From positions 124,001 through 188,000 of the forward strand of contig JALBWU010000002.1 in NCBI GenBank assembly GCA_022678445.1: a stretch of DNA of 64,000 nucleotides, written 5' to 3'. Made by a program: the position numbers and the translations under genes. Origin of the DNA: Candidatus Aramenus sp. CH1 (GTDB taxonomy: Archaea > Thermoproteota > Thermoprotei_A > Sulfolobales > Sulfolobaceae). How positions within the stretch are numbered: position 1 is the stretch's first letter; every line of letters begins with the position of its first letter. Below are positions 12,805 through 46,235 of the stretch, one piece after another. The notes beneath the pieces were generated by a model. The model ran no database searches. It had not been told where the DNA came from and saw nothing but the letters and a program-made list of their open reading frames with translations.

Positions 12805-13059
12805 TTACTCCTTTAGAATCCTTACTATGAATTCGTTCTCTCCTCGCTTTATTGAGGTACAAGGATATCCCCTACTTTTACATATGTTTTGAATAGAGGA
12901 GTCAAGAGGTTCCTCGTCGCTTATGACCTCTAGTACTTCACCGCTCTTTAACTGGTTTAGGGCCTTTACGACCTCTATTTGAGGCTCTGGACATGCCTCC
13001 CCCCTTAAGTCAAGCACTTTCGCAGGTTTAGAATTTCTCAACTTGTCCTCTATTGTCAT
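12805..13059 (-). CDS. tusA: TusA family sulfurtransferase
   Basis: An 84-residue SirA/TusA fold protein. The hallmark Cys-Pro-x-Pro motif is present as CPEP, with Cys23 as the sulfur-carrying residue, preceded by LDLRGEA. In Sulfolobales TusA carries persulfide or thiosulfonate sulfur between DsrE proteins and the Hdr-like complex during sulfur oxidation. Here it stands alone, without dsrE or hdr genes, between a surface protein and a transposon remnant, so a role in tRNA thiolation or general sulfur trafficking is equally possible. The ATG gives 16 residues before the first core strand, a normal length. Confidence 0.85.
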   Translation of the reverse strand: MTIEDKLRNSKPAKVLDLRGEACPEPQIEVVKALNQLKSGEVLEVISDEEPLDSSIQNICKSRGYPCTSIKRGENEFIVRILKE

Positions 13060-13123
13060 AATACTACTTCTTTAGAAGCGAGTCTTAAACCTTCTTCATT
13101 TTTAAGAAGTTTTTAAGAATTTC

Positions 13124-14540
13124 TTGATAAAAAAGAACTACAAACCTCGCCTGGCGGGGTTAAGGTTTTAAACAACAAAGACAATTTCCTTTTATGACGC
13201 TTTCTTTGGTGAACTAAAGATGAGGGGCGGGAGCCTATTACCCCCGCAATGAGGGAAGCGTCAAAACCGCAGTTGTGAGGCTCTTCCCTAGTGGGTAAAC
13301 AGAGGAAATTGAGGAAGTTGGCGGACGCAACAGCAAAGCTGTGGAAGGAGACAAACTACGAGAGACAACAATTCTTTCAGCAAAAGAATGTCAACTTTAA
13401 GGAAACGTGGAGGAAGTATTACGAGAAGTACAAGACTTTATTGGAAAACCAACGCTCAAGCTGCTTTCAGAAGAACAACTTGGTCGTCCTTCTTCTCGTC
13501 ATTAAAACAAAAACCGTCATTCGCGAATCACTTCTCACCACCAAGCTATTGGAAGGCGGTAAGAGGAAGTTGATCCTAGTAGTTAGGCAAGATCGTTACG
13601 AAGTTGACGAGGAAAGGCACGTCATCTCTCTGAAGGATTGGGAAATGAAGATGCCCTTTGAAGGTTAAGGTGGTTTGGAGTACAAGGACGTTTAGAAATT
13701 CGCGTTGAAGGCAACAACTTTTACGCCCACATTTCGTTGACGTTGGTAGGACTGTAGCAAAGAAAAGCGTAAGCCGATGAAGGACTCTCTCGTCGTCCAC
13801 GGTTTGAGGAGAGAGATTCAAGTTGAGAGACCTAAAGGTAACAAGGTTGCGTCAATTGACATTGGCCTAAACGCGTTGGCTACTGTTGTTGTTGAGGACG
13901 GTACTGTTCTCTTTTATAGGGGTTCCATCGTTAAGAGCGAACTTCTACTTTTCAGAAAAAGATCGCCGAACTCGACAAGTTAAAAAGCGAGACAGAAAAG
14001 GTTCAAGAAGTGAAAGCTAGGGAAGAAGTGCTGAGGGAAAGGGAAAGAGTATTTGCAAAGTTGTACCGTACGCTTCTTCACTACTACAGAACTTTAGCCT
14101 CTCATCTTGCTAAGTCCTTGTGGAATCTTGGCGTTTCAACAGTGTATTTGGGCTATCCTTACTTCATCTCTCAAGATAAGGGTAACAAGTTTACTGCGAA
14201 CATTTGGTCTTATCGCAAGTTGGTTGATGCTATAGTGAACAAGTTTTACGAATACGGCATAAAGACGTACCTAGTGATTGAGTACAATACTTCGCGGCTC
14301 TGCGCTTACCATGATGTTAAGGTTGATAGAAGGCCTAGGGGAGTCGTAAAATGTCCTTTTGGTCATAAGCTTCACAGCGACGTCAACGGAGCGTTAAACA
14401 TTGTGAAACTTGGAGTGAAGAAGATTGTCGACGCGTTGAAGAAGCCTTTTTCTTTTCTCTTCACATCACGGAGTATCTCCCATAAAGGGGAGTAACGCCT
14501 TAGACCTATGCAGAACCCTCGCATGGCGGGGAGGGGTCAG
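13124..14540 (+). mobile_element. Decayed IS200/IS605-type element encoding TnpB only
   Basis: The element has a left end around 13124-13165 (TTGATAAAAAAGAA, then CAAACCTCGCC in a small hairpin CCTCG-CGGGG) and a right end at about 14515-14540 (ACCCTCGC-ATG-GCGGGG, ending GGTCAG). Between them is a broken tnpB and no tnpA, as in IS1341-like elements. The same ends recur at 29193 and 43091-43140. A TATA-like GGTTTTAAAC follows the left hairpin and could have driven tnpB. Exact boundaries are estimates from the shared end sequences. Confidence 0.75.
13250..14495 (+). pseudogene. tnpB: tnpB pseudogene (RNA-guided nuclease family), frameshifted
   Basis: Pieces in three frames together make most of a TnpB. 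The N-terminal KTAVVRLFPSG is shifted by an extra base against GKQRKLRKLADATAKLWKE. A further break splits LENNAQAAF/WSSFF. RuvC-I is seen as IDIGLNALATVVVEDG (13855-13910). After another stop comes an open stretch 14010-14495 with RuvC-II (IEYNTS), the zinc finger (CAYH ... CPFGH) and RuvC-III Asp in LHSDVNGALNI. The three catalytic acidic positions survive, but the frameshifts make a full protein impossible. The last piece could still be read as a 161-residue fragment. Confidence 0.85.
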
Positions 14541-25836: not shown

Positions 25837-26943
25837 ATGGAACTCGAAAGGCTAGTATCGGAGCTCGTAAAGTTTAGGACTTACTCAAGTCAAGAGTTGA
25901 GGGAGTGCGCCTCGTTCATAGCCGAGTACTTCAAGGACCACGGCTACAGCCCAAGGATAAAGGAATACGAGCCAGGGTATCCAGTGGTCATAGTGGACAA
26001 CGGGAAGGGAGGTAGGCAAGTCCTACTCAACGGCCACTTTGACGTCGTCCCTCCCGGGGACTTAAATAGGTGGAGCGTTGACCCCTTCTCCGGAGTCGTG
26101 AAGGGAGGGAAGGTGTTCGGCAGGGGCTCTGCGGACATGAAGGGAGGGCTTGCCGTGCTGATGGAGGTATTCGCTGAGGTAGCAGAAAAGGTCGACTACA
26201 GTCTGGTCTTCACGGCAGTACCAGACGAGGAGACCGGGGGACAGAGGGGGGCTAGGCACCTCTCAGAGGAGTTCAGCCCTACCTTTGTGATTGTAGGCGA
26301 GCCGACCCAAGGGATGGTGAACGTCGGGGAGAAGGGGCTGTTCCAAGTAAAGGTAATAGAGAGGGGAAAGAGCGCCCACGGTAGCACCCCTTCTCTGGGG
26401 GAGAACGCCATAATGAAGCTGGTGAAGGATCTGGAGGCACTCGAGGGGGTAACCAAGATCGTCACCGAGTTGCAAGAGGTGTTGGAAGCGTCAAAGGCTT
26501 TGGCCAAGGTGGATCCATTAATAGCAAAGGAGTTGCTCCACGTCTCGTTTAGCCCTGGGGTAATTAAGGGCGGAGCCAAGGTAAACGTGGTCCCAGACTA
26601 CGCTGAGGCAGAGGTGGACGTGAGGGTGCCACCAGGAGTCCCACTAAAGCGGGTAGAGGAGTACGTGAGGGGCTCAGTGAGGGGGGAGGTACAAGTAATC
26701 GACTCCTCAGAGCCTACCATAAGTAGGGGAGAGCTCGTCGAGAAGTTCAAGAGGGCAGTGGGCGGGGAGGCCTACATCTCGACCTACGCTACTGACGGTA
26801 GGTACTTTAGGTTCAAGGGAGTTCCCACGGTCGTTTACGGCCCGGGGGAGCTTAAAGTTTTGCACTCCTACGACGAGTACGTCAGCGTGGAGGAGCTAAG
26901 GCTTACCGAGAAGAGGGTAAAGGAGTTCCTACTGGGCTTCTGA
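25837..26943 (+). CDS. M20 family amidohydrolase/peptidase (ArgE/DapE-like)
   Basis: A 368-residue di-zinc hydrolase. Ligands and catalytic residues are seen in GHFDVVPPG near residue 67, GRGSADMKGG near 93, PDEETGGQRGA near 129, VGEPTQ near 153 and the C-terminal LHSYDEYV. It has the catalytic and lid domains of the ArgE/DapE/carboxypeptidase G2 group. In this operon it would release an amino acid from an N-acyl or gamma-glutamyl intermediate made or consumed by the two upstream enzymes. Its 3' end overlaps the convergent permease gene by 15 bases. Confidence 0.88.
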   Translation: MELERLVSELVKFRTYSSQELRECASFIAEYFKDHGYSPRIKEYEPGYPVVIVDNGKGGRQVLLNGHFDVVPPGDLNRWSVDPFSGVVKGGKVFGRGSADMKGGLAVLMEVFAEVAEKVDYSLVFTAVPDEETGGQRGARHLSEEFSPTFVIVGEPTQGMVNVGEKGLFQVKVIERGKSAHGSTPSLGENAIMKLVKDLEALEGVTKIVTELQEVLEASKALAKVDPLIAKELLHVSFSPGVIKGGAKVNVVPDYAEAEVDVRVPPGVPLKRVEEYVRGSVRGEVQVIDSSEPTISRGELVEKFKRAVGGEAYISTYATDGRYFRFKGVPTVVYGPGELKVLHSYDEYVSVEELRLTEKRVKEFLLGF

Positions 26944-28239
26944 GCCTCTTTTTTCCTCCTCTGGCCCGCTCCTCACCACGTCCAGGGCCTCGGCGTAGAA
27001 GAAGCCCAGTATTATCCAACCGAACATCATATTCTCTATGTAGGGGCTCACGCCACTTACTAAGGATCCCACGAAGACTGCAAGGGATATCAAAGTGGCT
27101 ATTGCTCCCACAGTTACCTCTATAACGTGTTTGACCAGCCTCTTTGACGCTAGCCTTATCAAGGAAAGGTCTGCAGATGAATGGATGAAGATGTTTGAGA
27201 GTCCAGCTAGGGCTCCAAGTGTTACGAACGTGTCGTATATTCCAAAGTACTTGGTCATGAGGGTAAGCACCGAGATAAAAATGACTGAGACAAACAGCTC
27301 TGCCATAAGGGGCTTTCCCTTAACCTCCTTTGCGAGAACCCTAGGGAAGATCCCGTCCTCTGCCATTGCCTTTATCGTCCTGGAGTTGGCCAAGATATAG
27401 CTCACTCCTCCAAGGGTTCCGTCGTTGAGGGAGATGAACGCCATTACTACTAGGCCCCCTAGGCCAAAGCTACCTAATAGGAACTCCACGAGGTTCCCCG
27501 TGAAGTCAATGGCGCCCAACGAGAAGAAGAAGAGAGTTGCTAGCCCTCCTCCGACTAGGAGAACTAGGATCGACGCCTTCCCTATGTCGCTGCTTTTAGC
27601 TTCCCCTCCTAGAGGGGCAATCGAACCGTAGCCCGTGGGTATCCCAAGCCCAAAGAGCACTGCCTCGGGCAAGTTGGGCGAGAACTTGACAGGGTCGTAG
27701 AAGTGCCAGTGAGAAACGAAGAGGAAGTACACCGAGAGTAGTCCCAACGCAGCCATCTCCACTATTGACATTACCATGGCGTACTTGGACGACACTTTTA
27801 CTCCAGCGATGACAATAGCAGAGGCAAGGGCGGATATGACTAGGGCAAGTAAAGCTTGGTTAAAACCCGTAATGGCGTAAAGCACGTATGCCCCTCCAGA
27901 GAGCAAGGTACCTCCGTAGGAAAGGGCGTAAAGAAGGTATATCCACCCGGTCTCTAGTCCCATCCTAGAGGTGAGGCCGTAGTAGGCGTAGACGTAGTAC
28001 CCTCCTCCTCGCCTAAATCTATTGGCGAGGAAGTAAACGACAAGGCCGTTAAATAGGACGACGAAGGTAGCTATTAGCATGGCAAAGGCACCCGCAGTGT
28101 GGACCTCCGATATCATCACAGTGCCGAAAGTTAGCAGAGATATGATTGGGGCTTGGCCTCCAAACGATATGAAGAAGAGGTCGAGGAGGCCAAGCCCCTT
28201 TTCGGTCTTCTTGTTGCTCACCGCTTTTTTGGCTTCCAC
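26929..28239 (-). CDS. APC superfamily amino acid/amine permease
   Basis: A 436-residue transporter with about 12 helices. The first helix has the unwound substrate-binding signature FISFGGQAP after GLGLLDLF, as in APC permeases. Several conserved GG pairs follow. It is convergent with the M20 gene and probably supplies the amine or amino acid for the ligase-amidohydrolase-M20 module. Substrate cannot be read from the sequence. Confidence 0.85.
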   Translation of the reverse strand: MEAKKAVSNKKTEKGLGLLDLFFISFGGQAPIISLLTFGTVMISEVHTAGAFAMLIATFVVLFNGLVVYFLANRFRRGGGYYVYAYYGLTSRMGLETGWIYLLYALSYGGTLLSGGAYVLYAITGFNQALLALVISALASAIVIAGVKVSSKYAMVMSIVEMAALGLLSVYFLFVSHWHFYDPVKFSPNLPEAVLFGLGIPTGYGSIAPLGGEAKSSDIGKASILVLLVGGGLATLFFFSLGAIDFTGNLVEFLLGSFGLGGLVVMAFISLNDGTLGGVSYILANSRTIKAMAEDGIFPRVLAKEVKGKPLMAELFVSVIFISVLTLMTKYFGIYDTFVTLGALAGLSNIFIHSSADLSLIRLASKRLVKHVIEVTVGAIATLISLAVFVGSLVSGVSPYIENMMFGWIILGFFYAEALDVVRSGPEEEKRGSEAQ

Positions 28240-31275: not shown

Positions 31276-32607
31276 ATGGACTGGGAGAGACTGGGGGAAA
31301 AGTTCTACAGTTACGACGAAGAGGTCAAGGACGCCGTCTACTTTGTGCTCAAGTCCAGCGAGAGGGAGGACAGACAGTCTAACGTGATATCCTTCTTCAC
31401 TGGCGTCGGGAGGGCGCTGGACAAGCTAGACGCCGAGTGGATTAAGAGGTTTGCGAGCGAGTGCGATGACTATCCACCAATATGCGAGGGGATAGCCAGG
31501 GGGATGGCGGGGCTCACGTCTTTAAGCCACGACAGGGTAGACGCGCTCCTTTCCTCTAGAACCAGTGCAGTGTTCGTCCTCTCCAAGGTGGACTTGTCTA
31601 ATCCCTCGTTAAAGGATCTGGTATTGGGGGCAATAGACAGGGTCAAGGACGAGAGGAACCTCGGAGAAGTGGGGAGGAATTTCGGCCAGAACTTCCACAA
31701 GGCGTTGAAGGAGGTGAGGGAAAAGGTGGGCGTCCTCCTCTCAAACCCCTCCTTCGCCTACGAGTTCCTCAAGGTTGTCAACTTCTCCTACTTCTCCGAT
31801 ATCTACAACTTCTCTGGGGAGGTCAACGAAGTACTGGGGGAGAGGATACTACAGCTAACCGACTTCCAGAGGAGGAAGCTGTTGCAGAAGAGCGATAGGT
31901 GGCTGGGAGCTGGCGTGGGGAAGGTCTTTGACTCCCTCCCCTTCGAGCTGAGGAAGGTCGTGATAGAGAAGTTCAGCAACTACAGGGAGTTCGCGTTAGG
32001 ACTCATAAGGTCGCTGGACTTGAACGACCTCTCAGACGAGGAACTGCAGACAGTGATGTCCTCCTGCCTAAAGGACAGCGACCTCTCCTTTCTCTTGGGC
32101 AACAGCCTAGGCAGGAACTTCCCTTCGCTTAACGAGGACTTGAAGTCCCTTGCAGAGGAGCTCTCCTCAAAGAGCGTGGACGTGGCTAGGGGTCTGGGAA
32201 ACGGATTCTCAGTCCTTTTCACGAGGTTCTTCGATTTCTACTTCTCAAGGGACGTGAGCGAGGAGGACGAGGTAAGGGTGATGCAGATAGCTTTGAACAA
32301 CGAAAACGTTGCCAAGGAGATGCTAAGGAACATGAACTTCCTCGCGGTGAGGAGGAAGGACTTGTTGCTTAAGCTTATACTGAAGCACGTGGAGTTCGTG
32401 GACGACTTCTTGAAGGCTGTGGGCAGGAGGATAGGAGAGTTCGAAGTAGAGGACGTCTTTAAGCTGAGGGACCACCTCAGGGTAATAGGGAGGCTCTACT
32501 GCGAGAACATTCCCTCCCTCTCCCCAGAGAAGAGGAGGAAAGTGCTCGAGAAGCTAAATGACCCTGAGTTCTATCAAGGCTTCGTTGAGTGTAACAGACT
32601 CTCTTGA
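31276..32607 (+). CDS. All-alpha repeat (HEAT-like solenoid) protein, unknown
   Basis: A 443-residue protein rich in Leu, Lys and Glu, with no signal peptide. A short glycine motif recurs along it, seen as GVGRAL, GIARGMAGL, EVGRNFGQNF, GAGVGKVF, NSLGRNF, ARGLGNGF and AVGRRIGEF. These lie in predicted helices separated by acidic or polar loops, as in alpha-solenoid (HEAT/ARM-like) scaffolds. It is 60 bases before the Cys-motif protein on the same strand, which suggests one operon. No catalytic motif is evident. A scaffold or adaptor role is inference. Confidence 0.6.
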   Translation: MDWERLGEKFYSYDEEVKDAVYFVLKSSEREDRQSNVISFFTGVGRALDKLDAEWIKRFASECDDYPPICEGIARGMAGLTSLSHDRVDALLSSRTSAVFVLSKVDLSNPSLKDLVLGAIDRVKDERNLGEVGRNFGQNFHKALKEVREKVGVLLSNPSFAYEFLKVVNFSYFSDIYNFSGEVNEVLGERILQLTDFQRRKLLQKSDRWLGAGVGKVFDSLPFELRKVVIEKFSNYREFALGLIRSLDLNDLSDEELQTVMSSCLKDSDLSFLLGNSLGRNFPSLNEDLKSLAEELSSKSVDVARGLGNGFSVLFTRFFDFYFSRDVSEEDEVRVMQIALNNENVAKEMLRNMNFLAVRRKDLLLKLILKHVEFVDDFLKAVGRRIGEFEVEDVFKLRDHLRVIGRLYCENIPSLSPEKRRKVLEKLNDPEFYQGFVECNRLS

Positions 32608-32667: not shown

Positions 32668-33174
32668 ATGTGCGATTACAAGGTCGTGGAGATAGAGAGA
32701 CCTGTGAGGAACGTCAGTAAGGTGGCCCTTATACCCAGGGAGGAGTTCAACAAGTTCTCGCAGGAGAACTACTTGAACGTGCTGAGGTTCACCAAGGAGA
32801 AGCTAAACATGAGCAAGAGCTACTATTATTACATCCTGGAACGCCTTAAGGAGTTGGGACTGATTTTCGAGAACGCCATCAACTTCAAGGCAGTCATACC
32901 CTTCCTAGTGGAGGACGGCTCCCTCAAGGTAGACAAGAGCATGATGTACGTTACCGGTAAGTACTTGATCTTCATGGATTCAGGCTCTTCGCGTTTTTCG
33001 TGTGGTAGCTGTCCAGTGAGGGCCCTCTGCTACTACGGCCTAAAGAGGGTGGCAAGCGAAATAGGGTTTAAGGTAAAGGGGAACTGCACCTTAAGCGTCT
33101 TGTGGGAGAGGGCAATAATCACTGTGTTTAACAACGTGATGTCGAGGGCAAACTCGCTGGCCTTGGACTACTGA
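32668..33174 (+). CDS. Cys-motif protein (C-x2-CP-x5-C), paralogue of 49572-50129
   Basis: A 168-residue protein. The first 95 residues look like a winged-helix or helical DNA/protein-binding module (FSQENYLNVLRF, YYYYILERLKELGLIFENAINFKAV). The C-terminal half has CGSCPVRALC plus a later GNCTLSVLWERA; these four Cys could bind Zn or an Fe-S cluster. A clear paralogue lies at 49572-50129 with the same order of motifs (SYFYYIVGKLRELGLLLDNAISFKAV, CSSCPVVETC, RNECLDRAW). Function unknown. It may form an operon with the solenoid protein and converges, with 1 base between, on the radical SAM gene. A redox- or metal-sensing regulator is one possibility. Confidence 0.65.
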   Translation: MCDYKVVEIERPVRNVSKVALIPREEFNKFSQENYLNVLRFTKEKLNMSKSYYYYILERLKELGLIFENAINFKAVIPFLVEDGSLKVDKSMMYVTGKYLIFMDSGSSRFSCGSCPVRALCYYGLKRVASEIGFKVKGNCTLSVLWERAIITVFNNVMSRANSLALDY

Positions 33175-33175
33175 G

Positions 33176-34369
33176 CTACACGAAGTGCCTTATTAGCTTC
33201 ACTACCTCCTCGTAGCTCTTCCTCCTGCAGTCTATCCCATAGAACCCCTTGCTTTCCAAGACCGAGAAGAACCTACAGCCACCCACGCACATTGGTAGGA
33301 ACTCGCAGTTGTCACACTTCCCCCTCCACACGTTCCTGGCCTCTCTGCCCGTGAACTTTCCGTTGAACTCCACAGTGCCGTCCTCCCTCAGCTTACCCTT
33401 AACGTAAAGGGGGTTCCCAGTGAAGGCCCAGCAGGGGTAGACAAGGCCCTCAGGATCCACTACTATGTCCTCGTCTACGTGGGCTACGCATATCCCCAGC
33501 CTAAACACCTCTTGCGGTATCTCAAAGCCCTCCTCCTTGGCTATCTCCCAAACCCGAGAGAGCACCTTCCCCTCCTCTTCCTTGGGCATGACGTTCTCCC
33601 AGTACTCGTTCCTGAAGACGTTCTCGTGTACTATGTGGGGGTCAACCCTTACCTTGGTAATGCCCTGTTTCTTGAGGTGGGCGAAGAGGTCCCTTACCTC
33701 CTCGACGTTCCTGTAGTCCACGTTCACCCTAAGTACCACGTTGGTGTGGTCTTGGGCGTAGGCTAAGTTCTTGACTATGACGTCGAACGAGCCCTTCCCT
33801 CCGACGAAATACCTCCTCTTGTCGTGTACTTCTCTAGGGCCGTCTAGGGTTATTTGCACGTGGGATAGACCTAGGGAGTTCAACTTGTCCAGTACCCAGG
33901 GCGTCAGGAGGGAGCCATTGGTCACGACGCTAAAGGAGTAGTTCAGGTCTGACAACTGCTTGGAGATCTCCTCTATCCTCCTCATCTCTAGGAGGGGCTC
34001 TCCGCCGAAGTATGTGACCCTTACCCTGCTCTTTGCGTTCTTCCTCACGTAGTTTACGAATCCCCTCACCACCTCGTCCCTCACTCCGCCTTTCCTCCTG
34101 AAAGCCTTCTGGAAGCAGTAGACGCAGTCGAAGTTGCAGTCGTAAGTCAATACTAACGTGGGCTCTAGGACGTCCTTCTTCACTAGCTTTTCTGGGTCAA
34201 AGTCGCCGTCGCTAAAGCCCTCCTCCACTACCTCGCGGAGGTTTGGCGGTATCTCTCCCCTCCTAAGGGCGACCATTTCCTCCTTAGACACCCTGATGGC
34301 GTAACCGGTTAAAGTGTTGAAGACCACGTTATAATCGTAAAGAAAAACGTTGAATTTAGAGAGTTTCAC
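33176..34369 (-). CDS. Radical SAM/SPASM domain peptide-modifying enzyme
   Basis: A 397-residue enzyme. Residues 1-65 form an N-terminal module typical of peptide maturases ([19 protein letters not shown]). The AdoMet cluster motif is CNFDCVYC (Cys78, 82, 85). GGEPLLE follows, then a C-terminal SPASM region: [18 protein letters not shown]-x5-C-x3-C in [14 protein letters not shown], and a last IDC, enough Cys for two auxiliary [4Fe-4S] clusters. Such enzymes make thioether or C-C crosslinks in ribosomal peptides or activate sulfatases; no sulfatase is nearby. Start is GTG 34369, with GAGGTG overlapping the TGA of a 23-codon frame just upstream. Confidence 0.9.
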
Positions 34370-34381
34370 TCCCCTTCCACC

Positions 34382-34453
34382 TCACTGTCCCCATGAAGGG
34401 GAGTAGTTGCACCTTCCCATTTTCCTCTCGATCTTGACTACTTTTCTTTCCAT
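34382..34453 (-). CDS. Candidate 23-residue RiPP precursor peptide
   Basis: ATG 34453 to TGA 34382 encodes a basic N-terminal part MERKVVKIERKMGR and a tail CNYSPSWGQ. The stop lies 12 bases before the GTG of the radical SAM/SPASM gene, and the Shine-Dalgarno-like GAGGTG of that gene overlaps the peptide stop codon, indicating translational coupling. A TTTATCC TATA-like box lies about 24-28 bases upstream of the ATG. Length is in the range of PqqA-like precursors. A leader followed by a short Cys/Tyr/Trp core fits RiPP substrates, but the ORF is short enough to arise by chance, so it needs conservation evidence. Confidence 0.5.
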   Translation of the reverse strand: MERKVVKIERKMGRCNYSPSWGQ

Positions 34454-34684: not shown

Positions 34685-35257
34685 ATGTCAAACCCTTACC
34701 TCTACAACGCCGTCTGTAGGCCAGTTGGTTTGGGCTCAAAAATAGTCCAACTGAGGGTAGGCCACCAGCTAGACATGAAAGCGTTGAGCAAGGACCTTAA
34801 GGTGCTCTTTAGATCCCAGGGTTTTACAGTGTACACAATCTACAGTCCTAACGTGTTAGTCCTGCAGATCCACGCTTTTGGGGTGAGGGGGCACTACTAC
34901 ACAGTGAAGGTATGTCAAAGCGGTGGCGTCGTCCTAGTTGAGGCTGGGATAACTAACGGGAGGGTGCTGTTAGAGGAGGCAGGAGTATCTTCCGCAATAG
35001 GGACTATTTCCGACCTACTTCTGCACGACAAGCTGGTAGCGTTAATATCTGGGGCCTTTGCAGGGGTTGACGTGGCAAGCGTGTTGGGAAGTTACCAACA
35101 GGAGGAGGCGATAATACAACAAGTAATTAACACCATATACTCTTATGGTGTTCAGCCAAGTAATGTTCAGGCAAACTCTCCCCGTTGTCCCAACTGCGGT
35201 CAGGAGGTTAAGGAGTACTTCAAGTTCTGTCCAAACTGCGGTTACAGGCTAAAGTAA
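34685..35257 (+). CDS. Zinc-ribbon protein of unknown function
   Basis: A 190-residue protein. The C-terminal 25 residues hold two Cys pairs, CPNCGQEVKEYFKF then CPNCGYRLK, a typical zinc ribbon. The N-terminal 140 residues have alternating beta strands and helices (VLVLQIHAFGVRGHYYTVKV, LISGAFAGVDVASVLG) with no family I can name. Its last 16 bases overlap the convergent next gene. A role in nucleic-acid or protein binding is likely but unproven. Confidence 0.7.
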   Translation: MSNPYLYNAVCRPVGLGSKIVQLRVGHQLDMKALSKDLKVLFRSQGFTVYTIYSPNVLVLQIHAFGVRGHYYTVKVCQSGGVVLVEAGITNGRVLLEEAGVSSAIGTISDLLLHDKLVALISGAFAGVDVASVLGSYQQEEAIIQQVINTIYSYGVQPSNVQANSPRCPNCGQEVKEYFKFCPNCGYRLK

Positions 35258-36366
35258 GAGCGAACAAGCAGGAGAAGGAACTTGAAGAAGTTCCTCCTGA
35301 GGTTTAGCCTCTTTAAGTACTCTCCCTTGGTCTCCGCGTTCTTCCTTAAGACGTAGCCGGCGACCCTTGCAAACTTAAATCGGAGTAACCCCCTGTTATG
35401 GAGCCAGCACTGGTAGAGCACTTCGTAGTACTTAGGGGTACTGGGCAAAGGGATCAAAATAGACTTAAAGCCAATGTACTCAGTCACCTTCTCTTCCTCT
35501 ACGTATATGGTAGGGTAGATGAAGTTCTCGTTGAGCTCCTTAAGTACTTCTCTCTCAATCTCTTCTACCCTGCACGAGCTCCGCTTGCTAAGGAGCGCTG
35601 GAGACCTCCAGTTTCGTTCGTTTAGCCCCAGGATCTTCCTTACCGCCTGGAGGTCCACATTAGCTGAGGACTCCTGGGTTATGTGGGAGAAGTAGACCTC
35701 TCCGTACTCCTTTGCAGTCCTCAGGAGGACTTCGAGTCCCTCGCCGTAAGAGAAGAGGTCGTTGGAGATCAAGTTCACCCTCCCCCTTCTGGACTGAACC
35801 CTCAGCTCTTCCTTCACCACGTTCATTGGTACCCTTCTCTCGCCTCTTATTACCTCTACCTCCGATAGGGAAGAGGGCGACTTTATTGGAAAGAACCTCT
35901 TCGCCTTCTCTCCGTAGACTACTTTGGGGAACTCCCCTTGACGTAATAGCTTTGGAAGGGTCTCCTCAGCCTCTCCCACGAATACCGTGTCCACCCAGTC
36001 TGGAGGGTCTAACGCCAGTTCCCAGCTCCCTGGTCCCCCAACTATAACCTTAAACTTCCTTCTCAACACCCTTAGCCTCTCTGAAAACATCCGGAAAGCC
36101 TCAACGTGGAATGGAGGATCTCCGAAGACCTCCTGAAGCCCCCTGGAGACCTCTGTCATCCCAAGCGGGTCGTTGACGTATACCCCTAGGACTCCGCCAG
36201 GGAGATTCTCTAGGGACTCTGGTCTAACCACTTTAGCTCCTGCTATTGTCTCTATCTTCCTAACTCCGTAGGGCGGGTACTTGTTCTTTCTGTAAAAAGG
36301 TGGAATTAGCCTCCTTGGAAGTGAGGAATACGAGTAAAAGGTGCCCTCGTCAGCTGTGATGAACAC
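35242..36366 (-). CDS. Cobalamin-radical-SAM-like protein lacking cluster cysteines
   Basis: A 374-residue protein with the N-terminal layout of B12-binding radical SAM proteins: opening ITADEGTF, then VIVGGPGSWELAL and VDTVFVGEAEETLPKLL, the usual Rossmann-like cobalamin-binding half. Where the family has a Cys-x3-Cys-x2-Cys motif after (E/S)xxRGC, this protein has VEVIRGERRVPMNVVKEEL. Only two Cys exist in the whole chain, neither able to form the motif. So it probably lost AdoMet-cluster chemistry and may be a decoy, regulator or scaffold. The frame is intact. It overlaps the zinc-ribbon gene 3' end and shares a strand with the YkgJ-type gene. Confidence 0.72.
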   Translation of the reverse strand: MFITADEGTFYSYSSLPRRLIPPFYRKNKYPPYGVRKIETIAGAKVVRPESLENLPGGVLGVYVNDPLGMTEVSRGLQEVFGDPPFHVEAFRMFSERLRVLRRKFKVIVGGPGSWELALDPPDWVDTVFVGEAEETLPKLLRQGEFPKVVYGEKAKRFFPIKSPSSLSEVEVIRGERRVPMNVVKEELRVQSRRGRVNLISNDLFSYGEGLEVLLRTAKEYGEVYFSHITQESSANVDLQAVRKILGLNERNWRSPALLSKRSSCRVEEIEREVLKELNENFIYPTIYVEEEKVTEYIGFKSILIPLPSTPKYYEVLYQCWLHNRGLLRFKFARVAGYVLRKNAETKGEYLKRLNLRRNFFKFLLLLVRSYFSL

Positions 36367-36393: not shown

Positions 36394-36996
36394 TTATTTT
36401 CTTTTCTCTCCGCCGAACCTCTTTACCAGTTCCTCCAGAAGTTCGAGGGGAGAAGGTGCCCTGCCCAGACCTCTTTCCATTTCCCTCGTTACCTCGTCCA
36501 CTACCTCTTTTACCTTCTTACCTGCGATACAGTAGTCGGGGACCATGAACGAAGGTATGCCTCCAGCGTAGTTGTCAATTACCTCCTTTTGCTCGTCTTC
36601 CGTAGAGAAGGGAAAGGAGAGGCAGGCATAGGGCTTGAAGTTGTGTATCTTGCACTTCCAACCGTCTTGGTAAGGGCAAGGTCTAGGCAGAAGGTAAAAC
36701 TCGCCCTGCTTCTTCAGTTCCAGCTTTGGCATCCTAAGTTTCATCTCCTCGTAGTCAAAAGGGAAGACAGGGACTGGGTTCCCCGACCTGCAGCACTTCC
36801 CGCCGCACTTCCTGCAGTACTCACTCACGTCTATCAAGGAGTTCATGGCTATTTGATATACTACAGAGTAAAGGGCGGGCTTCACTTGCGGGATACCTAG
36901 GTAAGGTCTCAGAGCGTCAAGTAAGTCCCGAAAAGCTTTAACATCTCCCTTCAAGGAGGACTTTGTGAGTTTGTTAAGAAAAATGACGTCGATCAT
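36394..36996 (-). CDS. YkgJ family cysteine-cluster protein
   Basis: A 200-residue protein with the CxxCxxxCC-type motif CRKCGGKCCRSG near residue 59, followed by CPYQDGWKCKIH and ACLSFPF, the layout of the YkgJ/DUF zinc- or Fe-S-binding family. It lies upstream of the B12-like protein on the minus strand, 27 bases apart, so they may be one operon. The role of the family is unclear, with suggestions of Zn or Fe-S handling. Confidence 0.85.
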   Translation of the reverse strand: MIDVIFLNKLTKSSLKGDVKAFRDLLDALRPYLGIPQVKPALYSVVYQIAMNSLIDVSEYCRKCGGKCCRSGNPVPVFPFDYEEMKLRMPKLELKKQGEFYLLPRPCPYQDGWKCKIHNFKPYACLSFPFSTEDEQKEVIDNYAGGIPSFMVPDYCIAGKKVKEVVDEVTREMERGLGRAPSPLELLEELVKRFGGEKRK

Positions 36997-37445
36997 AAAG
37001 TGAGAGTAGGATTTTCAAAAAATAAACCTTGTTTCAAAGCTGAAGAGCCAATCGAGTCCACCTATTTCACGATAGTTTTCCGAGACTAGAACCTCGTCTT
37101 GTCAAAGCCTCGATTTGGGAGCTCGTTGTTTAACGTTGTTGTAGATCAACGCCTTCACGATTACCAACCGTGATCATCTAGTTTACCTTCACGGTCAAAG
37201 TAACGTATCTCAGAGTCTCCACGTACCTCCTAACAATTATAGCTGATTATAAATATTTATAAATAAACATAATATCTTTTATTACATAAAAAAGGTTACT
37301 CTGTAAATCGTAAAGTAAACTAGGCATCTCAATTTCATGTTGCAAGAAATTTTCGAAAATTTCTTGAAAATTTAAATAGAAACTCCGCTTTTATCTAAAA
37401 CATTTCTCTTTATCGGCTTAAATCGATACTTCGCAATTACTATAT
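36997..37445. other. 449-base regulatory interval before the molybdenum hydroxylase operon
   Basis: There is no ORF of note. The right half is strongly AT-rich, with several TATA-like runs (ATAAATATTTATAAAT at about 37249-37264 and AAATTTAAATAG at about 37367-37378). The second lies just after a perfect palindrome and fits a promoter with a leader of about 40 bases for the coxM gene at 37446. The left half contains no feature I can name. Confidence 0.5.
37343..37366. promoter_or_regulatory. Perfect 24-bp palindrome, candidate operator
   Basis: CAAGAAATTTTC is followed directly by its reverse complement GAAAATTTCTTG. It abuts the TATA-like AAATTTAAATAG of the downstream operon, so a dimeric regulator bound here would compete with TBP/TFB or recruit them. 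It could also form a hairpin in RNA, but its position upstream of the promoter makes a DNA operator more likely. Confidence 0.55.
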
Positions 37446-38309
37446 ATGTACCCGCCGGAATTTACGTATGTGAGGGCGGACAACTTAAGTGAAGCCCTCG
37501 ACTTTCTCTCTAGCCACGAAAACTCGAGGCCGTTGGCGGGAGGACAGAGCCTTCTTCCAATGCTGAAGCTCAGGGTAATACAGCCAGACTACGTAGTGGA
37601 CATAGGTAGGCTCAACGAGCTGAAGTACGTGAGGAGCGTGGTGGAAGGGTTAAGGATAGGGGCTCTAACAACTTACAACGAGTTGTTGAAGAGCGACCAA
37701 GTAAAGGTATTGGCACCCCTCCTTTACCAAGCCGTGAAGACAGTTGGGGACTTCCAAGTGAGAAACGTGGGGACCCTAGGGGGCTCCGTGTCCCAGGCTG
37801 ACCCCGCCTCCGACGCTCCAGTGGCGTTAACAGCCTTGGAGGCGGAATTCACGTTGTCCTCAAAGGGAGGTAACAGGGTGGTCAAGGCGACGGAGTTCTT
37901 CCAGGGTCCCTTCACCACGTCGTTGAGGAGCGATGAACTGGTGACAGAGATCTCGGTGCCAGCCCTAGACGGCTACGTTGTCAAGTACAGGAAGGTTGTC
38001 AGAAGGGCAGGGGACTACGCGTTGGCTTCAATGGCGTTGGCGGTAAAGCTGAGGGGAGGGGAAGTGGAGGACATGAGGCTTTCCCTTGGAGGCGTGCACG
38101 ACAGGCCTTTTAGGGCGTTTGAGGTGGAGAAGATGGTGATTGGCAAGAAGCTCGACGAGAGTCTGGCAAAGGAGGTAGCGGAAAAGGTATCCTCTCAGAT
38201 CAACCCTCCCTCAGATCACAGGGGTGGCCCATGGTACAGGAGGGAGGTAGTGAAGCTCATGGTCGAGAAGGCCTTAATGGAGGTGAAAGCAGGTGTTGGT
38301 GGTCAATAA
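37446..38309 (+). CDS. coxM: Molybdenum hydroxylase, FAD-binding medium subunit (glyceraldehyde oxidoreductase type)
   Basis: A 287-residue FAD subunit of the xanthine oxidase family. The FAD motifs are AGGQSLLP (residues 32-39) and [16 protein letters not shown] (residues about 113-128). It passes electrons from the Fe-S subunit to an acceptor. In Sulfolobales, homologous three-subunit enzymes oxidise glyceraldehyde in the non-phosphorylative Entner-Doudoroff pathway. It is first in an M-S-L operon, overlapping the small subunit by 17 bases. Confidence 0.93.
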
Positions 38310-38778
38310 GGGGGAGAAGGTCAAGGTAAGGATAAGGGTAAACGGCGTGTGGTACGAGAAGTACGTAAGCCCGAGGATGTTGCTTGTGGACTTCCTGAGG
38401 GACGAGCTCAACTTGACTGGCACTAAAGTGGGTTGTGATACGACAACGTGTGGGGCATGTACCGTCCTCTTGAATGGAAAGTCCGTGAAGTCGTGCACTG
38501 TTCTGGCAGTGCAAGCTGATGGAGGTGAGGTCACTACGATAGAGGGGTTAAGCGTGGACTCCAAGTTACATCCCATACAAAAGGCTTTCGAGGACAACTT
38601 CGCCCTCCAGTGTGGTTTCTGCACTCCCGGGATGATAGTACAGAGCTACGCCCTACTGAAGGAGAACCCGAATCCCACGGAAGAGGAGATAAGGGACGGG
38701 ATACACGGCAACATATGCAGGTGTACTGGTTATCAGAACATAGTTAAGGCAATACAGGACGCCTCTAGGAGGATGTGA
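38293..38778 (+). CDS. coxS: Molybdenum hydroxylase, 2Fe-2S small subunit
   Basis: A 161-residue subunit with two [2Fe-2S] clusters. The plant-ferredoxin-type N-domain has [16 protein letters not shown]; the C-terminal helical domain has CGFCTPGM and CRCTGYQ. It starts with GTG 38293 (TTG 38296 and GTG 38299 are alternatives), inside the end of the medium subunit, and its stop overlaps the ATG of the large subunit by four bases. It links the Mo centre to FAD. Confidence 0.94.
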
Positions 38779-41030
38779 GGATGAGCTACGTAGGTAAGCC
38801 CGTAAAGAGGATGTACGACGACAAGTTCGTCACAGGCAGGAGCACATACGTCGACGACGTGAGGGTGCCGGCGCTCTACGCTGGCTTTGTCAGGAGTCCC
38901 TACCCGCATGCCAGGGTGAAGAGGGTAGACGCAACAGACGCGCTGAAAGTCCCTGGAATAGTCGCGGTGTTCACGTCGAGGGAGATAAACCCCCTATTGA
39001 AGGCAGGAGTTGGTATCCTTACGCCATACTTGAACCCCAGCGCCTTTAGGTTCAAGGAGAGGAAGGCGTTCCCAGAGGACAACAAGGTCAAGTACGTGGG
39101 CGAGCCAGTAGCCGTAGTAGTAGGGGAGGACAAGTACGCGGTAAGGGATGCAATAGACAAGGTAGTGGTAGACTACGAGCCGTTAAAGCCAGTCCTCAAG
39201 ATGGAGGAAGCAGAGAAGGATGAGGTAATAATCCACGAGGAGCTGAAGAGCAACGTTGGTTACAGGATACCCTTTAAGGCGGGGGACGTGGAGAGAGCGT
39301 TCAGTAAGGCCGACAAGGTCATAGACGTGGAGGCGATAAACGACAGGCTAATTCCCAACCCAATGGAACCAAGGGGGATCTTAGCCAACTACGACGGCAC
39401 GACGCTTACGGTGTGGTATTCTACCCAAGTGCCTCACTTCGCCAGAAGCGAGTTCTCCAAGGTCTTTGGCGTCCCTGAGAACAAGATAAGGGTGATAATG
39501 CCCGACGTGGGAGGTGCCTTTGGAAGTAAGGTCCACATAATCCCCGAGGACCTCTCTGTCATTGCCTCCTCAATCCTCCTGAGGAGGCCAGTGAGGTGGA
39601 CTGCCACGAGGAGCGAGGAGATGATCGCCAGCGAGGCGAGGAGCAACGTGTTCAGGGGACAAGTGGCGATCAAGAAGGACGGTACAGTGCTCGGCATTAA
39701 GGGCAAGCTACTTCTCGATCTGGGGGCTTACCTCACCATAACTGCAGGGCTCCAGCCAATGATAATACCCATGATGGTCCCAGGGCCGTACAAGGTGAGG
39801 GACGTAGAGATAGAGAGCGTGGCAGTGTACACTAACACTCCACCCATTACCATGTACAGGGGGGCAAGCAGGCCAGAGGCGACCTATATCATAGAGAGGA
39901 TAATGAGCTACGTGGCTGACGAGCTGGGCCTAGACGACGTTACCGTGAGGGAGAGGAACCTCATCGACCAGCTGCCCTACATGAACCCATTTGGGTTGAA
40001 GTACGATACTGGAGACTACAAGGGGTTGTTAAAGGAGGGATTAGAGAGACTAGGTTACTTCGAGCTGAAGAAGTGGGCCGAGGACGAGAGGAAAAAGGGA
40101 AGGAAAGTAGGGGTCGGAATGGCGTTCTACCTTGAGATATGCAGTTTCGGTCCATGGGAGTTCGCTGACGTAAAGATCAACGAGAAGGGAGAGGTCACTG
40201 TCATCACCGGCATAACCCCACACGGACAGGGAACGGAGACGGCTTTGGCGCAAATAGTGGCTGACGCGTTCCAGATACCCATAGAAAAGGTGAGGGTGAT
40301 ATGGGGAGACACGGTAGTGGTTGAAGGGAGCTTCGGCACTTATGGCTCTAGGTCTGTCACGATTGGCGGTTCAGCAGCGCTAAAGGCGTCGCAGGTGATC
40401 CTGGAGAGGATAAGGAGGGGAGTGGCAAAGCAGATGGGAGTGGACGTGCAAGAGGTTGTTCACGAAGATGGCGGGTTTAGGCTCAGGGACGGCAGGAAAT
40501 TGAGCTGGGAGGAGGCAGTGCAACTAGCGTTGAGGAGCAAGGAGAACTTGACGGAAAAGGTGTACTACGAGAACGACGTGACCTTCCCCTACGGCGTCCA
40601 CGTAGCTGTAGTGGAGGTAAGCGACGAGGGAATAGCCAAAGTCTTGGAGTACAGGGCATACGACGACATAGGGAAAGTCGTGAACCCTGCGTTAGCTGAG
40701 GGACAGATACACGGAGGAGGTACGCAGGCTGTAGGGCAGGCGTTGTACGAGATGGCGGTACTGAACGAGAACGGTGGGCTTTCAATAACCTACGCCGACT
40801 ACTACGTGCCAACTGCCGTGGAGGCACCAAAGTTCACCTCCGTGTTCGCCGAGAAGTACCATGCCTCCACTTACCCCACGGGGACAAAGGGAGTAGGGGA
40901 AGCTGCACTGATAGTTGGCCCCGCCACCATAGTCAGGGCACTGGAGGACGCGGTGAAGGCCAGATTCACCAAGACTCCCGTCACACCAGTGGAGATCTAC
41001 AAGGCTATGAAGGGGATAAGGGAACGTTAA
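38775..41030 (+). CDS. coxL: Molybdenum hydroxylase, molybdopterin large subunit
   Basis: A 751-residue catalytic subunit of the xanthine oxidase family. The active-site loop is [10 protein letters not shown] (residues 360-369), like form II (AYRGAGR), not the AYxCSFR loop of true aerobic CO dehydrogenase. The catalytic glutamate is Glu709 in GVGEA. Q-loop and cofactor glycines ([11 protein letters not shown] near 238) are present. Aldehyde, probably glyceraldehyde, oxidation is the best inference from Sulfolobales relatives. It closes the operon; an AT-rich stretch with T runs follows the stop. Confidence 0.94.
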
Positions 41031-41309
41031 AGGGCTTGACGAGGGTTTATTCCAGGATTTTTTAACCTTTTAAGAGTAAACTGCCTTGACGCCTTATGGA
41101 GCTAACATCATAACTCCTAATACGTTATTCCCCTCCCCACCTCTTTAATGGATGTCTTGTTCTTACGTTCTCTGGCCTCTACAACTGTACTAAAACCTTG
41201 ATATGTCCATTCTTATGGGTTTTCTCGCGCATCATTTTAACCATAATTTTAATGAAAAACATAAAAACCTTACTCAGTATTTAAAGGTGAAGCTTAATAT
41301 TTTTCTGTC
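41031..41309. other. Intergenic interval after coxL
   Basis: No convincing long ORF. A TTTTTTAACC stretch at about 41058-41067 may end the cox transcript. Near 41277-41286 the sequence GTATTTAAAG is a TATA box about 26 bases before the small ORF at 41310. One stretch on the minus strand reads for about 28 codons, but has no start or recognisable family. Confidence 0.4.
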
Positions 41310-41429
41310 ATGAGGCTGTTTGAGTCGAAGAAATACCTCGTGTTATACCACATTCCAGGGATTGAGTTCCTCAGCGTAGTCTGCAACAGCGTCCTAAGTA
41401 CCATATGGGCCATAACTAAACTGTGTTAA
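41310..41429 (+). CDS. 39-residue small ORF with leaderless promoter
   Basis: ATG 41310 to TAA 41429 encodes MRLFESKKYLVLYH followed by a hydrophobic stretch (IPGIEFLSVVCNSVLSTIWAI) and a final Lys-Leu-Cys. The TATA-like GTATTTAAAG is centred about 26 bases upstream, which fits the leaderless promoters of its neighbours. It could be a single-helix membrane peptide or a toxin-like small protein. Coding status is unproven. Confidence 0.4.
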   Translation: MRLFESKKYLVLYHIPGIEFLSVVCNSVLSTIWAITKLC

Positions 41430-41493
41430 AGTTCTCGACGGGATATCTTTATATGCAATTGATAAATAGAAATTAACACGATAATAATTATTA

Positions 41494-42240
41494 ATGATTG
41501 TGTCGACTGTCTTAGGCTCAAAGAACTTATACCCGGCGTTCCAGTGGTTAAGCGACGTCGGCAACGTCATATCAGTAATTCCTAACGTAGTAAAGGTCGA
41601 AGGGAATAAGAGAGTAGAGCTCAAGTTTACTAGATTATTATTCTTCTCTTTCGAGTCCACGTTTGACATTTCTTACAGTGTAGTAGGGGAAAAAATGGTG
41701 GAATACAAGCTGGTCGACCAGAAGGGGAACCAGATTAAGATCTTCTTCGTGGAAAAGGACAATGACAAACTCGAAATCCTCATTTCGTATGACGGGGAAA
41801 AAGCGTGGATAGTGAGGAAGGGCCTTTCCAAGATCTTAGAGGAGATAAAGAAGGGGCTAGAGAATGAGTTATCGAGAGCAGAGATAAGGTCCACTGCAGA
41901 GGATTACTCCCAGAAACTGGGCAAGATATCTAACATCTCCAAGATAATTATGAAGTCCAAGCTAGCTAACACGGAGGTTATCTCAATAAAGGAAGGGGGA
42001 CTTATAAGTTACCTTGAGTCCGTGATCTCCCAGTACTCTAAGTACCCTGTCATATATGTGTCAGGGACAGGAGAAGCAACTTTTAGAGTGCTATTCATAC
42101 AAGGAGAGCTTAAGGGAGTCTACGTAATGATTCACGAGAACGAACACTTCGACGAGGAGTTCCTCAACAGGCTCTCGGGCGAGTTCAAGGTTAACGTATA
42201 CGTTGCCCTGTCGCCGCAAGTTTTAGAGGTGATAAAATGA
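41494..42240 (+). CDS. SRPBCC-like two-domain protein
   Basis: A 248-residue soluble protein. Residues 1-130 have the strand order and C-terminal long helix of the START/SRPBCC (CoxG-like) ligand-binding fold, e.g. FDISYSVVGEKMVEYKLVD and ending in LSKILEEIKKGLENEL. Residues 140-248 form a second alpha/beta domain (VISIKEGGLISYLESVISQY, VIYVSGTGEATFRVLFIQGE). Its TGA overlaps the next ATG (ATGA), so it is coupled to the MBL protein. I recognise no specific family. Confidence 0.6.
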   Translation: MIVSTVLGSKNLYPAFQWLSDVGNVISVIPNVVKVEGNKRVELKFTRLLFFSFESTFDISYSVVGEKMVEYKLVDQKGNQIKIFFVEKDNDKLEILISYDGEKAWIVRKGLSKILEEIKKGLENELSRAEIRSTAEDYSQKLGKISNISKIIMKSKLANTEVISIKEGGLISYLESVISQYSKYPVIYVSGTGEATFRVLFIQGELKGVYVMIHENEHFDEEFLNRLSGEFKVNVYVALSPQVLEVIK

Positions 42241-44093: not shown

Positions 44094-44579
44094 ATGAGTC
44101 AAGACAGCAACGAAAACAAGAAAGAGGAAGAGAAGAAGACAGTCACAATCAGGGGAGTAGATCAAGAACTCTACAACAGGCTGAACGAGTTGGCCAAGAG
44201 GACAGGGAAGACCGTCGGAGAGCTCACCAATCAAGCATACAAGATTTTCTTAGGGGTCACAGATACGGCTAAAAAGGTCGCCATAACTGCTGTAGAGAGC
44301 GGCAAGAGCCTGGTTGAGGGATTCAAGGAGACTGCAGAAATAGTGACGGTCTCTGACGTGGACGAGATAGAGATAACCAAGGACGAGATAAGGGGCCTTG
44401 ATAAACCAGTAGCATTCAGGAACGTAAAAAAGCTAGTATTTGTTGGGATAGACGACAGCGACCTAGAAAAAATAAAGGAGATTGTTGGGGTAGACGAAGT
44501 CGTAATACCCAAAGGAGTAAACAAAATAAAGCTACTGCAGAAGTGCAGAATGGTAAAGAGGGTTACTCAAGCTAGTTAA
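44094..44579 (+). CDS. Ribbon-helix-helix DNA-binding protein with C-terminal domain
   Basis: A 161-residue protein. Residues about 15-55 (KTVTIRGVDQELYNRLNEL and AKRTGKTVGELTNQAYKIFL) are a ribbon-helix-helix (CopG/Arc-like) domain. The remaining part, with DVDEIEITKDEIRGLDKPVA and IPKGVNKIKLLQKC, is an alpha/beta domain I cannot name. The TATA-like CTTTTTATTC lies about 26 bases before ATG 44094 (leaderless). It stands alone before a secreted protein gene and may be an autoregulated repressor. Confidence 0.75.
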   Translation: MSQDSNENKKEEEKKTVTIRGVDQELYNRLNELAKRTGKTVGELTNQAYKIFLGVTDTAKKVAITAVESGKSLVEGFKETAEIVTVSDVDEIEITKDEIRGLDKPVAFRNVKKLVFVGIDDSDLEKIKEIVGVDEVVIPKGVNKIKLLQKCRMVKRVTQAS

Positions 44580-44639: not shown

Positions 44640-46235
44640 ATGAAGTATAGTAAAAGTATCTTTATAATAGTAATGATAATTTTGATAATAATTGCAGGTA
44701 TTTCGGGATTTTTAGCTGGGAAATATGCTTCTCCTAGTAAGAACTCTGCGACAACTACAGTAGAAAATGTTACCTACGTGAAGCAAGTCTCCTCTAGCGA
44801 CTTCTTTCCTCCAGCTGGAGTGGGTAACACAGAGGACTACTTAATCAACCCTGTGTTTCCAGCCCACACAATAGCGGGGCAATACGCCTATGTCACTCAA
44901 GGTAACGGTAGGGTATTCATAGGCGGGCTCTACTACACAGGAAACGGCTACTTGGCTGGGGCTAAAGGGGCAGCCGTTGTGGCGTCAATGCTAGCCTATC
45001 AACCGTTAACCCAGTACGACTACTACTTGTACATAACCGCGCCTTCTACCATAAACGTAGGGGGAGCCGTGAAAACCGACTCTGCCACGGTGATGTACTT
45101 GGCATCAATGTTGGGACAAGTAGCTAACCTCAACAAGTCCATGTACTTCCTAGGAGACGTCGGACTAGAGGGTTATATGTACTCGACCGGGGTGGTGTAC
45201 CAGAGGATAGTCCAGCTCTACCAAGGGGGTATATACTACCTAGTTGTCCCCCAGATGATGGCGTTAGCGGAGGGGCAGAACTTCCAGATGGCGGAGCATT
45301 TCGCTAAGGAGCACAACATAACCCTTCTCACAGCCGAGTCGATACCGCAGATGTACCAGCTGGAGACCTCCTATTCCCTGTCCCAACCAGTGGGCTACAT
45401 GGACCTCCAGTACAACGCCTCTGTGGGATATCAGTACTTGTCCGCGATATACCACACTCTATTGAACGAGAGTGCTAACCAGACTGCCAAGGAAATGGCG
45501 AAGAAGTACTGGGCTCAGGCAGAGAGTTTGGCAAACGAGGGCAATTACACCGCCTTTTATTTCCTCCCAAACCCCGCAGTGTCAGCGATACAAGTACTAT
45601 ACAACAACAACTACAACCTGTCGATGGAGGTACAGAGGGCAGTTGGCTCTGCCATTTCCTCAATGGATTTGTGGAAGATAGAGACTGCGGCCGAGGCCGA
45701 TTACTTGTTTGGCTCTGGCAACTTGTCAGAGGAAATCTTGGCAGAAGCGTGGGCATCCCTTAGCCTGTCGATAAACGTAGGTCCAACCATAACTCCCTAT
45801 GGTCTTTACCAAGGTCTTTACAACGAGTACGTTACTGACGTGTACGCAGCAGAGTACTACGACGCAGTTACTGGTTCCAACTACGGTAACGTCACTTTGC
45901 TTAACGACGTGTTGAAGGACCCCAACGTGGTTTATGACTACGGCTTCTTCTCTAATTACTACTCCCAGCTGGCGCTGAACTTCAGCTACTACTTCCTAAA
46001 GCAGCTCAACTCCACGTCTCAAAGCGTGGTTAAGTCCTCCATCTATAGCTACATGGTAAACGAGGACAAGGCCTTACAGGACGCTGCAGCCTACTACGAT
46101 GCCCCTTCAATAGTAGGAGAGATAGCGATAGAGTACGGGACCTCCGCACATAACTTAGCCTACCTTTACCTTGCGATGCCCTTCGTTAGGTTCACCATGA
46201 ACACCGAACAGCTAACGTGGTACGCCTCTGTTTAG
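44640..46235 (+). CDS. Secreted Lon-like (S16/COG1750-type) protein with altered catalytic dyad
   Basis: A 531-residue protein with an N-terminal helix (residues 7-26) as signal or anchor, then a region matching the archaeal secreted Lon-like protease family: [10 protein letters not shown] near 90, a nucleophile loop [10 protein letters not shown] (141-150, Ser148), [18 protein letters not shown] (172-189) and ILVVP-like strand. The Ser of the Lon dyad is kept, but the Lys that follows GG-x-x-E in Lon is Gln188. So proteolysis by the Ser-Lys mechanism is doubtful. The C-terminal 300 residues are Tyr/Asn-rich helices unknown to me. TATA ATTTTAAAAG lies about 26 bases before ATG 44640 (leaderless). 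Confidence 0.65.

Follow-up and report, generated by a model that had tools for sequence, protein, structure and literature searches.

Background

Transcription regulators of Sulfolobus may act on very few sites. According to the excerpted text of the cited reports, YtrA of S. acidocaldarius (YtrA-Sa) has two targets (PMC6746942) and FadR has four sites (PMC6449355). The locus examined here carries a 24-bp perfect palindrome upstream of an operon in the window, by which we mean the whole 64-kb stretch of DNA that was analysed. The palindrome resembles the YtrA-Sa operator in its layout at a promoter, where additional half-sites flank a dyad core, as that operator is presented in the portion of the report available (PMC6746942). 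The YtrA-Sa regulon is also very small in that account, as that of the palindrome would be. Unlike the palindrome, the YtrA-Sa operator has a 14-bp core spanning the start of transcription, and this core is conserved among species that have the regulator, as far as the excerpt describes it (PMC6746942).

Two other described elements share features with the palindrome. The Ara-box AACATGTT, which is bound by XylR, is palindromic and lies upstream of sugar-catabolic promoters in Sulfolobales, in the passages available (PMC7264815). The 15-bp BarR motif TTGGAAAAATTACAA, similar to that of Ss-LrpB, is an AT-rich semi-palindrome whose binder is Lrp-like, again according to an excerpted text (PMC4977709). 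Compared with the BarR motif, the palindrome is a longer dyad and has no central base. The Ara-box itself was absent from positions 36997-37460, where the best agreement was 6 of 8 positions on either strand. The BarR/Lrp-like motif reached at best 10 of 15 in the region when scored without a matrix. The Csa3a motif TTCNTAACTAAANANGGNNNGAAA was also rejected, with a best agreement of 17 of 24 and six positions being N.

The closest described counterpart of the downstream operon is the molybdenum glyceraldehyde oxidoreductase (GAOR) of S. tokodaii, which belongs to the same enzyme family; the genes for the M and S subunits precede the L gene, as in GAOR1, in the available part of the report (PMC4726530). 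That text reports a promoter-like sequence for one gene pair, and the part at hand describes no operator (PMC4726530).

Identity of the operon and its neighbours

The three genes downstream of the palindrome, all on the plus strand, encode glyceraldehyde dehydrogenase subunit beta, the FAD subunit (37446-38309; NF041019, 399.8 bits against a cutoff of 350; PF00941 and PF03450), subunit gamma, the 2Fe-2S subunit (38293-38778; NF041020, 300.2 bits against a cutoff of 290), and subunit alpha, the Mo subunit (38775-41030; NF041018, 1250.5 bits against a cutoff of 790). All three exceed the NCBIfam equivalog cutoffs, which identifies a glyceraldehyde dehydrogenase (GAOR) operon, and the closest solved chain to the alpha subunit is 4zoh_A, GAOR2 of S. 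tokodaii. An aerobic CO dehydrogenase (cox) was ruled out, as the large subunit scored 422 bits with TIGR02416 against a cutoff of 991 and 518.7 bits with NF040766 against a cutoff of 950. By homology, the operon is the Sulfolobus Mo-GAOR and not a CO dehydrogenase.

The initial annotation had placed the palindrome at a molybdenum hydroxylase promoter with coxM as the following gene. The molybdenum hydroxylase operon stands; the name coxM does not, and glyceraldehyde dehydrogenase subunit beta (NF041019) is the better one. Given the NCBIfam names, the missed CO dehydrogenase cutoffs and the nearest chain, 4zoh_A, this gene encodes the FAD subunit of a glyceraldehyde oxidoreductase.

A Pfam scan of 30 window proteins found no known regulator gene adjoining the palindrome, in agreement with the earlier remark that no regulator gene sits beside it; the flanking gene encodes a CxxCxxCC protein. 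The sole DNA-binding Pfam match among these 30 proteins was a marginal one, to a ribbon-helix-helix protein (44094-44579; 20.9 bits against a cutoff of 20.5) whose gene lies 3 kb beyond the operon. As several neighbours (31276-32607, 32668-33174, 35242-36366 and 41494-42240) had no Pfam match, an undescribed DNA-binding protein may yet be encoded nearby. Elsewhere in the window, an amino-acid permease gene on the minus strand (26929-28239) contains, within its 5' part, a perfect G+C-rich inverted repeat (28148-28198) with arms of 14 bp and a 23-base spacer.

Dyad symmetry at the promoter

The intergenic region at 36997-37445 lies between the minus-strand CxxCxxCC-protein gene (36394-36996) and the plus-strand operon (37446-41030). 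The letters at 37343-37366, CAAGAAATTTTCGAAAATTTCTTG, are identical to their reverse complement, which confirms the 24-bp perfect palindrome (CAAGAAATTTTC/GAAAATTTCTTG, no strand) claimed in the initial annotation. It lies 80-103 bp upstream of the three-gene operon and is the longest perfect palindrome of the window, the runners-up being 16 bp. Around it extends an imperfect wider dyad (37329-37380, no strand), detected as a minus-strand self-match with 81% identity to its own reverse complement; viewed pair by pair, 9 of the 14 next base pairs beyond the perfect core match. A third half-site-like copy, GAAAATTT (37366-37373, plus strand), forms a direct repeat 11 bp after the right-arm copy (37355-37362), a distance of roughly one turn of the helix, and extends into the stronger of two TATA-like boxes. 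The three copies of GAAAATTT/AAATTTTC are thus adjacent, with two of them in direct repeat.

The TATA-box consensus is TTTAWATA. The best TATA-like box of the region, TTTAAATA (37371-37378, plus strand), agrees with it at 8 of 8 positions, lies 75 bases before the ATG and is separated from the palindrome by four bases. It forms part of the TATA-like sequence AAATTTAAATAG at 37368-37379, 67-78 bases ahead of the ATG (37446), and this is the position, about 70 bases before the coxM of the earlier reading, that had been claimed for it. A weaker TATA-like sequence, CTTAAATC (37417-37424, plus strand), is found 29 bases ahead of the ATG. When seven loci from genera g2, g5 and g7 were aligned with the region, this sequence fell opposite AAATAAATA in the six loci from g5 and g7, and the columns of the palindrome showed no conservation. 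The CTTAAATC box, if used, would yield a leaderless transcript. Either box may be the one in use, and with CTTAAATC in use the palindrome would lie about 50 bp above the box. Boxes agreeing at 7 of 8 positions also occur further upstream, at 37248-37265.

The palindrome and the direct half-site repeat at the TATA-like box take the form of an operator for a dimeric regulator at a promoter, and dyad symmetry near a core promoter, one mark of an operator, is present. When the 449-bp intergenic region (36997-37445) was dinucleotide-shuffled 20,000 times, one shuffle held a palindrome of at least 24 bp, and at window composition the expected number of 24-bp palindromes is 0.004 per 64-kb window and 0.115 per 1.93-Mb genome, under composition models that assume independent bases. 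Against base composition, the assertion that the palindrome is unlikely by chance is therefore well founded. Among relatives, the longest perfect palindrome was 22 bp, an isolated case in 95 loci that together comprise 382,254 partly overlapping bases. The palindrome is unusual for one window and not astonishing across a genome collection, and one mutational step could also create such a palindrome.

Further copies and conservation

The initial annotation had looked to further copies of the site in the genome, and to its presence upstream of orthologous operons, for support. No second copy of the 24-mer was found in the source genome at up to 3 mismatches, and none at up to 2 mismatches in 228 other genomes of the class. 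The exact 22-mer was absent from viral contigs. When the 22-mer was searched at up to 3 mismatches in 31 genomes of the source's family, the Sulfolobaceae, source included, it recovered the source site, one match in the congener G001 and one in G007; its reversed control matched once in each of two of the same genomes. The 18-bp core at up to 3 mismatches had three other matches in the source genome, overlapping open reading frames of 217, 86 and 457 codons. Half-sites were not enriched: one pattern occurred 8 times, counting the palindrome, and its reversed control 12 times, and a second occurred 9 times, counting the two arms, and its control 14 times. Across the 31 family genomes, a degenerate pattern built from palindrome-type sites matched 107 places and its control 129. 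The counts were two against none in the source genome and the same in G001, the pattern having been derived from sites of these two genomes.

A search with the beta subunit gave matches in 44 of 60 genomes, source included. We took as loci only the best match of each of 30 of these genomes, 29 of which are genomes other than the source; the matches left aside were mostly paralogues. The palindrome was absent within 500 bases upstream in all 29 homologous loci. The two results that the initial annotation had named as refuting the site, no further copies and no conservation in relatives, were thus both obtained. The best-match sum over the 300 bases upstream of these loci was 400; 300 permuted palindromes averaged 397.9, and 111 of them reached 400. 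Beta-subunit identity, taken as the best match per genus, was 49 to 64% for genera g2-g5 and g7-g10. The best matches in g6 (44%) and g11 (43%) are perhaps paralogues, orthology here being judged by identity rather than from a tree.

G001, the sole congener compared, has no close operon homologue; its two matches are 42% and 38% identical. Its contig is collinear with the window through 37186 and again from 41935, and the segment at 37187-41934 (no strand), which holds the palindrome and the operon, is absent from the corresponding place. About 1.1 kb lies there instead (G001:C19:8721-9814, L148) and encodes a broken Cas12f1-like/TnpB fragment (PF07282, 43.4 bits). Since 8 of the family's 10 other genera have homologues at least 49% identical, loss of the operon in G001 would be the simpler reading. 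The conservation test is weak, as the only congener compared is without the operon. Two further stretches, 33512-34409 and 44735-46004, are unmatched in this otherwise collinear congener contig, and the former spans much of a radical-SAM gene (33176-34369).

The window's best match after the palindrome itself, at 13103-13126 (no strand), agrees at 19 of 24 positions, the next-best match reaching 16 of 24, and its own dyad has 9 of 12 pairs by reading. This look-alike precedes a minus-strand TusA-like gene (12805-13059) by 44-67 bases and lies just upstream of a TATA-like sequence of that gene. The equivalent place in G001 (L043:3000-3023), which is the G001 match of the 22-mer search, agrees at 20 of 24. 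It is located between the stop codon of a glycosyltransferase, whose frame ends 35 bases before the site, and the TusA-like gene, and is crossed by a 68-codon open stretch that shows no evidence of being a gene. In the source genome an IS605-like insertion (13127-14539) starts exactly where the look-alike ends. This insertion is absent there in G001, and as the site is uninterrupted in that genome, the look-alike predates the insertion. Matches of at least 19 of 24 occurred 0 times in 2 Mb of window-like Markov sequence and once in 2 Mb of intergenic-like sequence. The sharing of the look-alike with G001 is not evidence of selection, because site and flanks show much the same similarity between the two species. 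For the TusA-like homologues of other genera, the site was absent from the 14 of 28 loci inspected (L172-L185, the closest), the best agreement being 12 to 16 of 24.

In the source genome the degenerate pattern finds only the palindrome and the 13103 site, a result that is circular as support for them. Taken as a pattern count, this two-site result argues against a wider regulon. The two sites might be operators of one unnamed regulator that, in this genus only, links glyceraldehyde oxidation with the TusA-like sulfur carrier gene. Such a two-site regulon would have arisen after the genus split, with other genera using unrelated dyads, and we regard it as unlikely. Neither recurrence in the genome nor conservation upstream of orthologues thus marks the palindrome as an operator, the look-alike at 13103 being weak and the congener being without the operon. 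These absences are not fatal to the operator idea, since the congener lacks the operon and known Sulfolobus regulators have very few sites.

Candidate operator and alternative explanations

We interpret the palindrome as a local, lineage-specific candidate operator of a regulator encoded elsewhere in the genome, and assign this reading a probability of roughly 45%. From the observed palindrome, its position, the half-site repeat and the identity of the operon, we infer protein binding, the kind of binder and the sign of regulation as follows. A homodimeric regulator whose gene lies elsewhere would occupy the 24-bp palindrome, one subunit on each arm, and would probably also touch the direct GAAAATTT repeat, which extends into the BRE/TATA region. 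With four bases between the site and the best TATA-like box, the bound protein might either block TBP/TFB or recruit them. Blocking would result in repression, relieved by a sugar- or aldehyde-pathway metabolite, and recruitment in activation from an upstream site. Repression would be somewhat likelier than activation because the third half-site overlaps the TATA-like box. The palindrome is placed where an operator would sit, and a function as operator is not supported by either the recurrence or the conservation result. Of the earlier proposal of a site for a dimeric regulator, what holds is a non-random palindrome in a control region beside a good TATA-like box; the binding role, with neither copies nor conservation, is not supported. 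If bound, the palindrome would represent a further case of an archaeal regulator with one or two sites. It would also offer a handle on the switching of a sugar-oxidising Mo enzyme, which is not described in the available texts. The palindrome is ordinary in kind, and the general picture would be unchanged even if it were bound.

A local operator and a non-functional palindrome of mutational origin are about equally likely. In the latter case, to which we give slightly lower odds than to the operator, a single event of templated repair or strand switching would have turned an imperfect AT-rich repeat around the BRE/TATA element into a perfect one. Quasipalindrome correction would be the mechanism. 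Statistics based on independent bases would then be inapplicable, since the palindrome would have been perfected in a single step. This origin would account for the adjacent GAAAATTT/AAATTTTC copies, including the direct repeat, and for the imperfect dyad that flanks the perfect core. It also agrees with the lack of both conservation and further copies (source genome, class genomes and the 29 loci) and with the occurrence of an isolated 22-bp perfect palindrome in relatives. It does not explain why the site falls at an operon promoter, or why a weaker look-alike common to the congener lies at another promoter.

Two further explanations have much less in their favour. As RNA, the palindrome would form a 10-bp stem with a UUCG loop, and it could act as a hairpin in the 5' leader if transcription started upstream of it, for which the 7/8 TATA-like boxes at 37248-37265 would be available. 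Both nearer TATA-like boxes, however, would place the start downstream of the palindrome, and the folding energy is ordinary (z -0.79; 41 of 200 shuffles fold as well). Rfam gave no match up to E 1 in 36900-37500, and no terminator-like site was found in 36990-37460. An RNA family, a terminator and a special RNA fold were rejected on the basis of Rfam, the terminator search and the shuffled folds, and a leader hairpin is very improbable. That the palindrome is the remnant of a mobile element end is suggested by the Cas12f1-like/TnpB domain fragment that G001 has in place of 37187-41934 and by the look-alike at 13103-13126, which ends exactly at the start of the IS605-like insertion. The palindrome, however, lies 157 bp inside the segment junction and is single-copy at up to 3 mismatches, with its 22-mer absent from viral contigs; a repeated mobile element end or MITE was rejected on this single copy. 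The look-alike, being uninterrupted in G001, is older than the insertion, and the operon homologues in most family genera make loss in G001 the simpler account of the segment. We consider a mobile element remnant scarcely credible.

Dyads upstream of the operon in other genera

All six loci of genera g4 and g9 (L016-L021) carry an inverted repeat, AAATATG-N10-CATATTT, whose centre lies 79.5 bases ahead of the homologous FAD-subunit gene; three copies are exact and three have one mismatch. At up to one mismatch, and with these sites included, it occurs 6, 6, 6, 7 and 14 times in five of the six genomes, compared with 1, 2, 2, 3 and 4 times for the control; the exception is G017, with 2 occurrences against 3. 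We consider this repeat a candidate operator of another regulator. Its presence suggests that dyad operators with differing sequences exist upstream of the GAOR operon in the family, and since it occurs in all six loci, a dyad operator ahead of the operon is plausible in this family.

In genus g5 (L005, L008, L009, L010 and L011), inverted GAAATATTT repeats stand some 194 to 202 bases ahead of the gene. The arrangement GAAATATTT-N8-AAATATTTC was rejected as an operator, since in G005 it follows the upstream gene's stop codon by about 12 bases, and the g5 repeats are possibly part of a 3' end signal.
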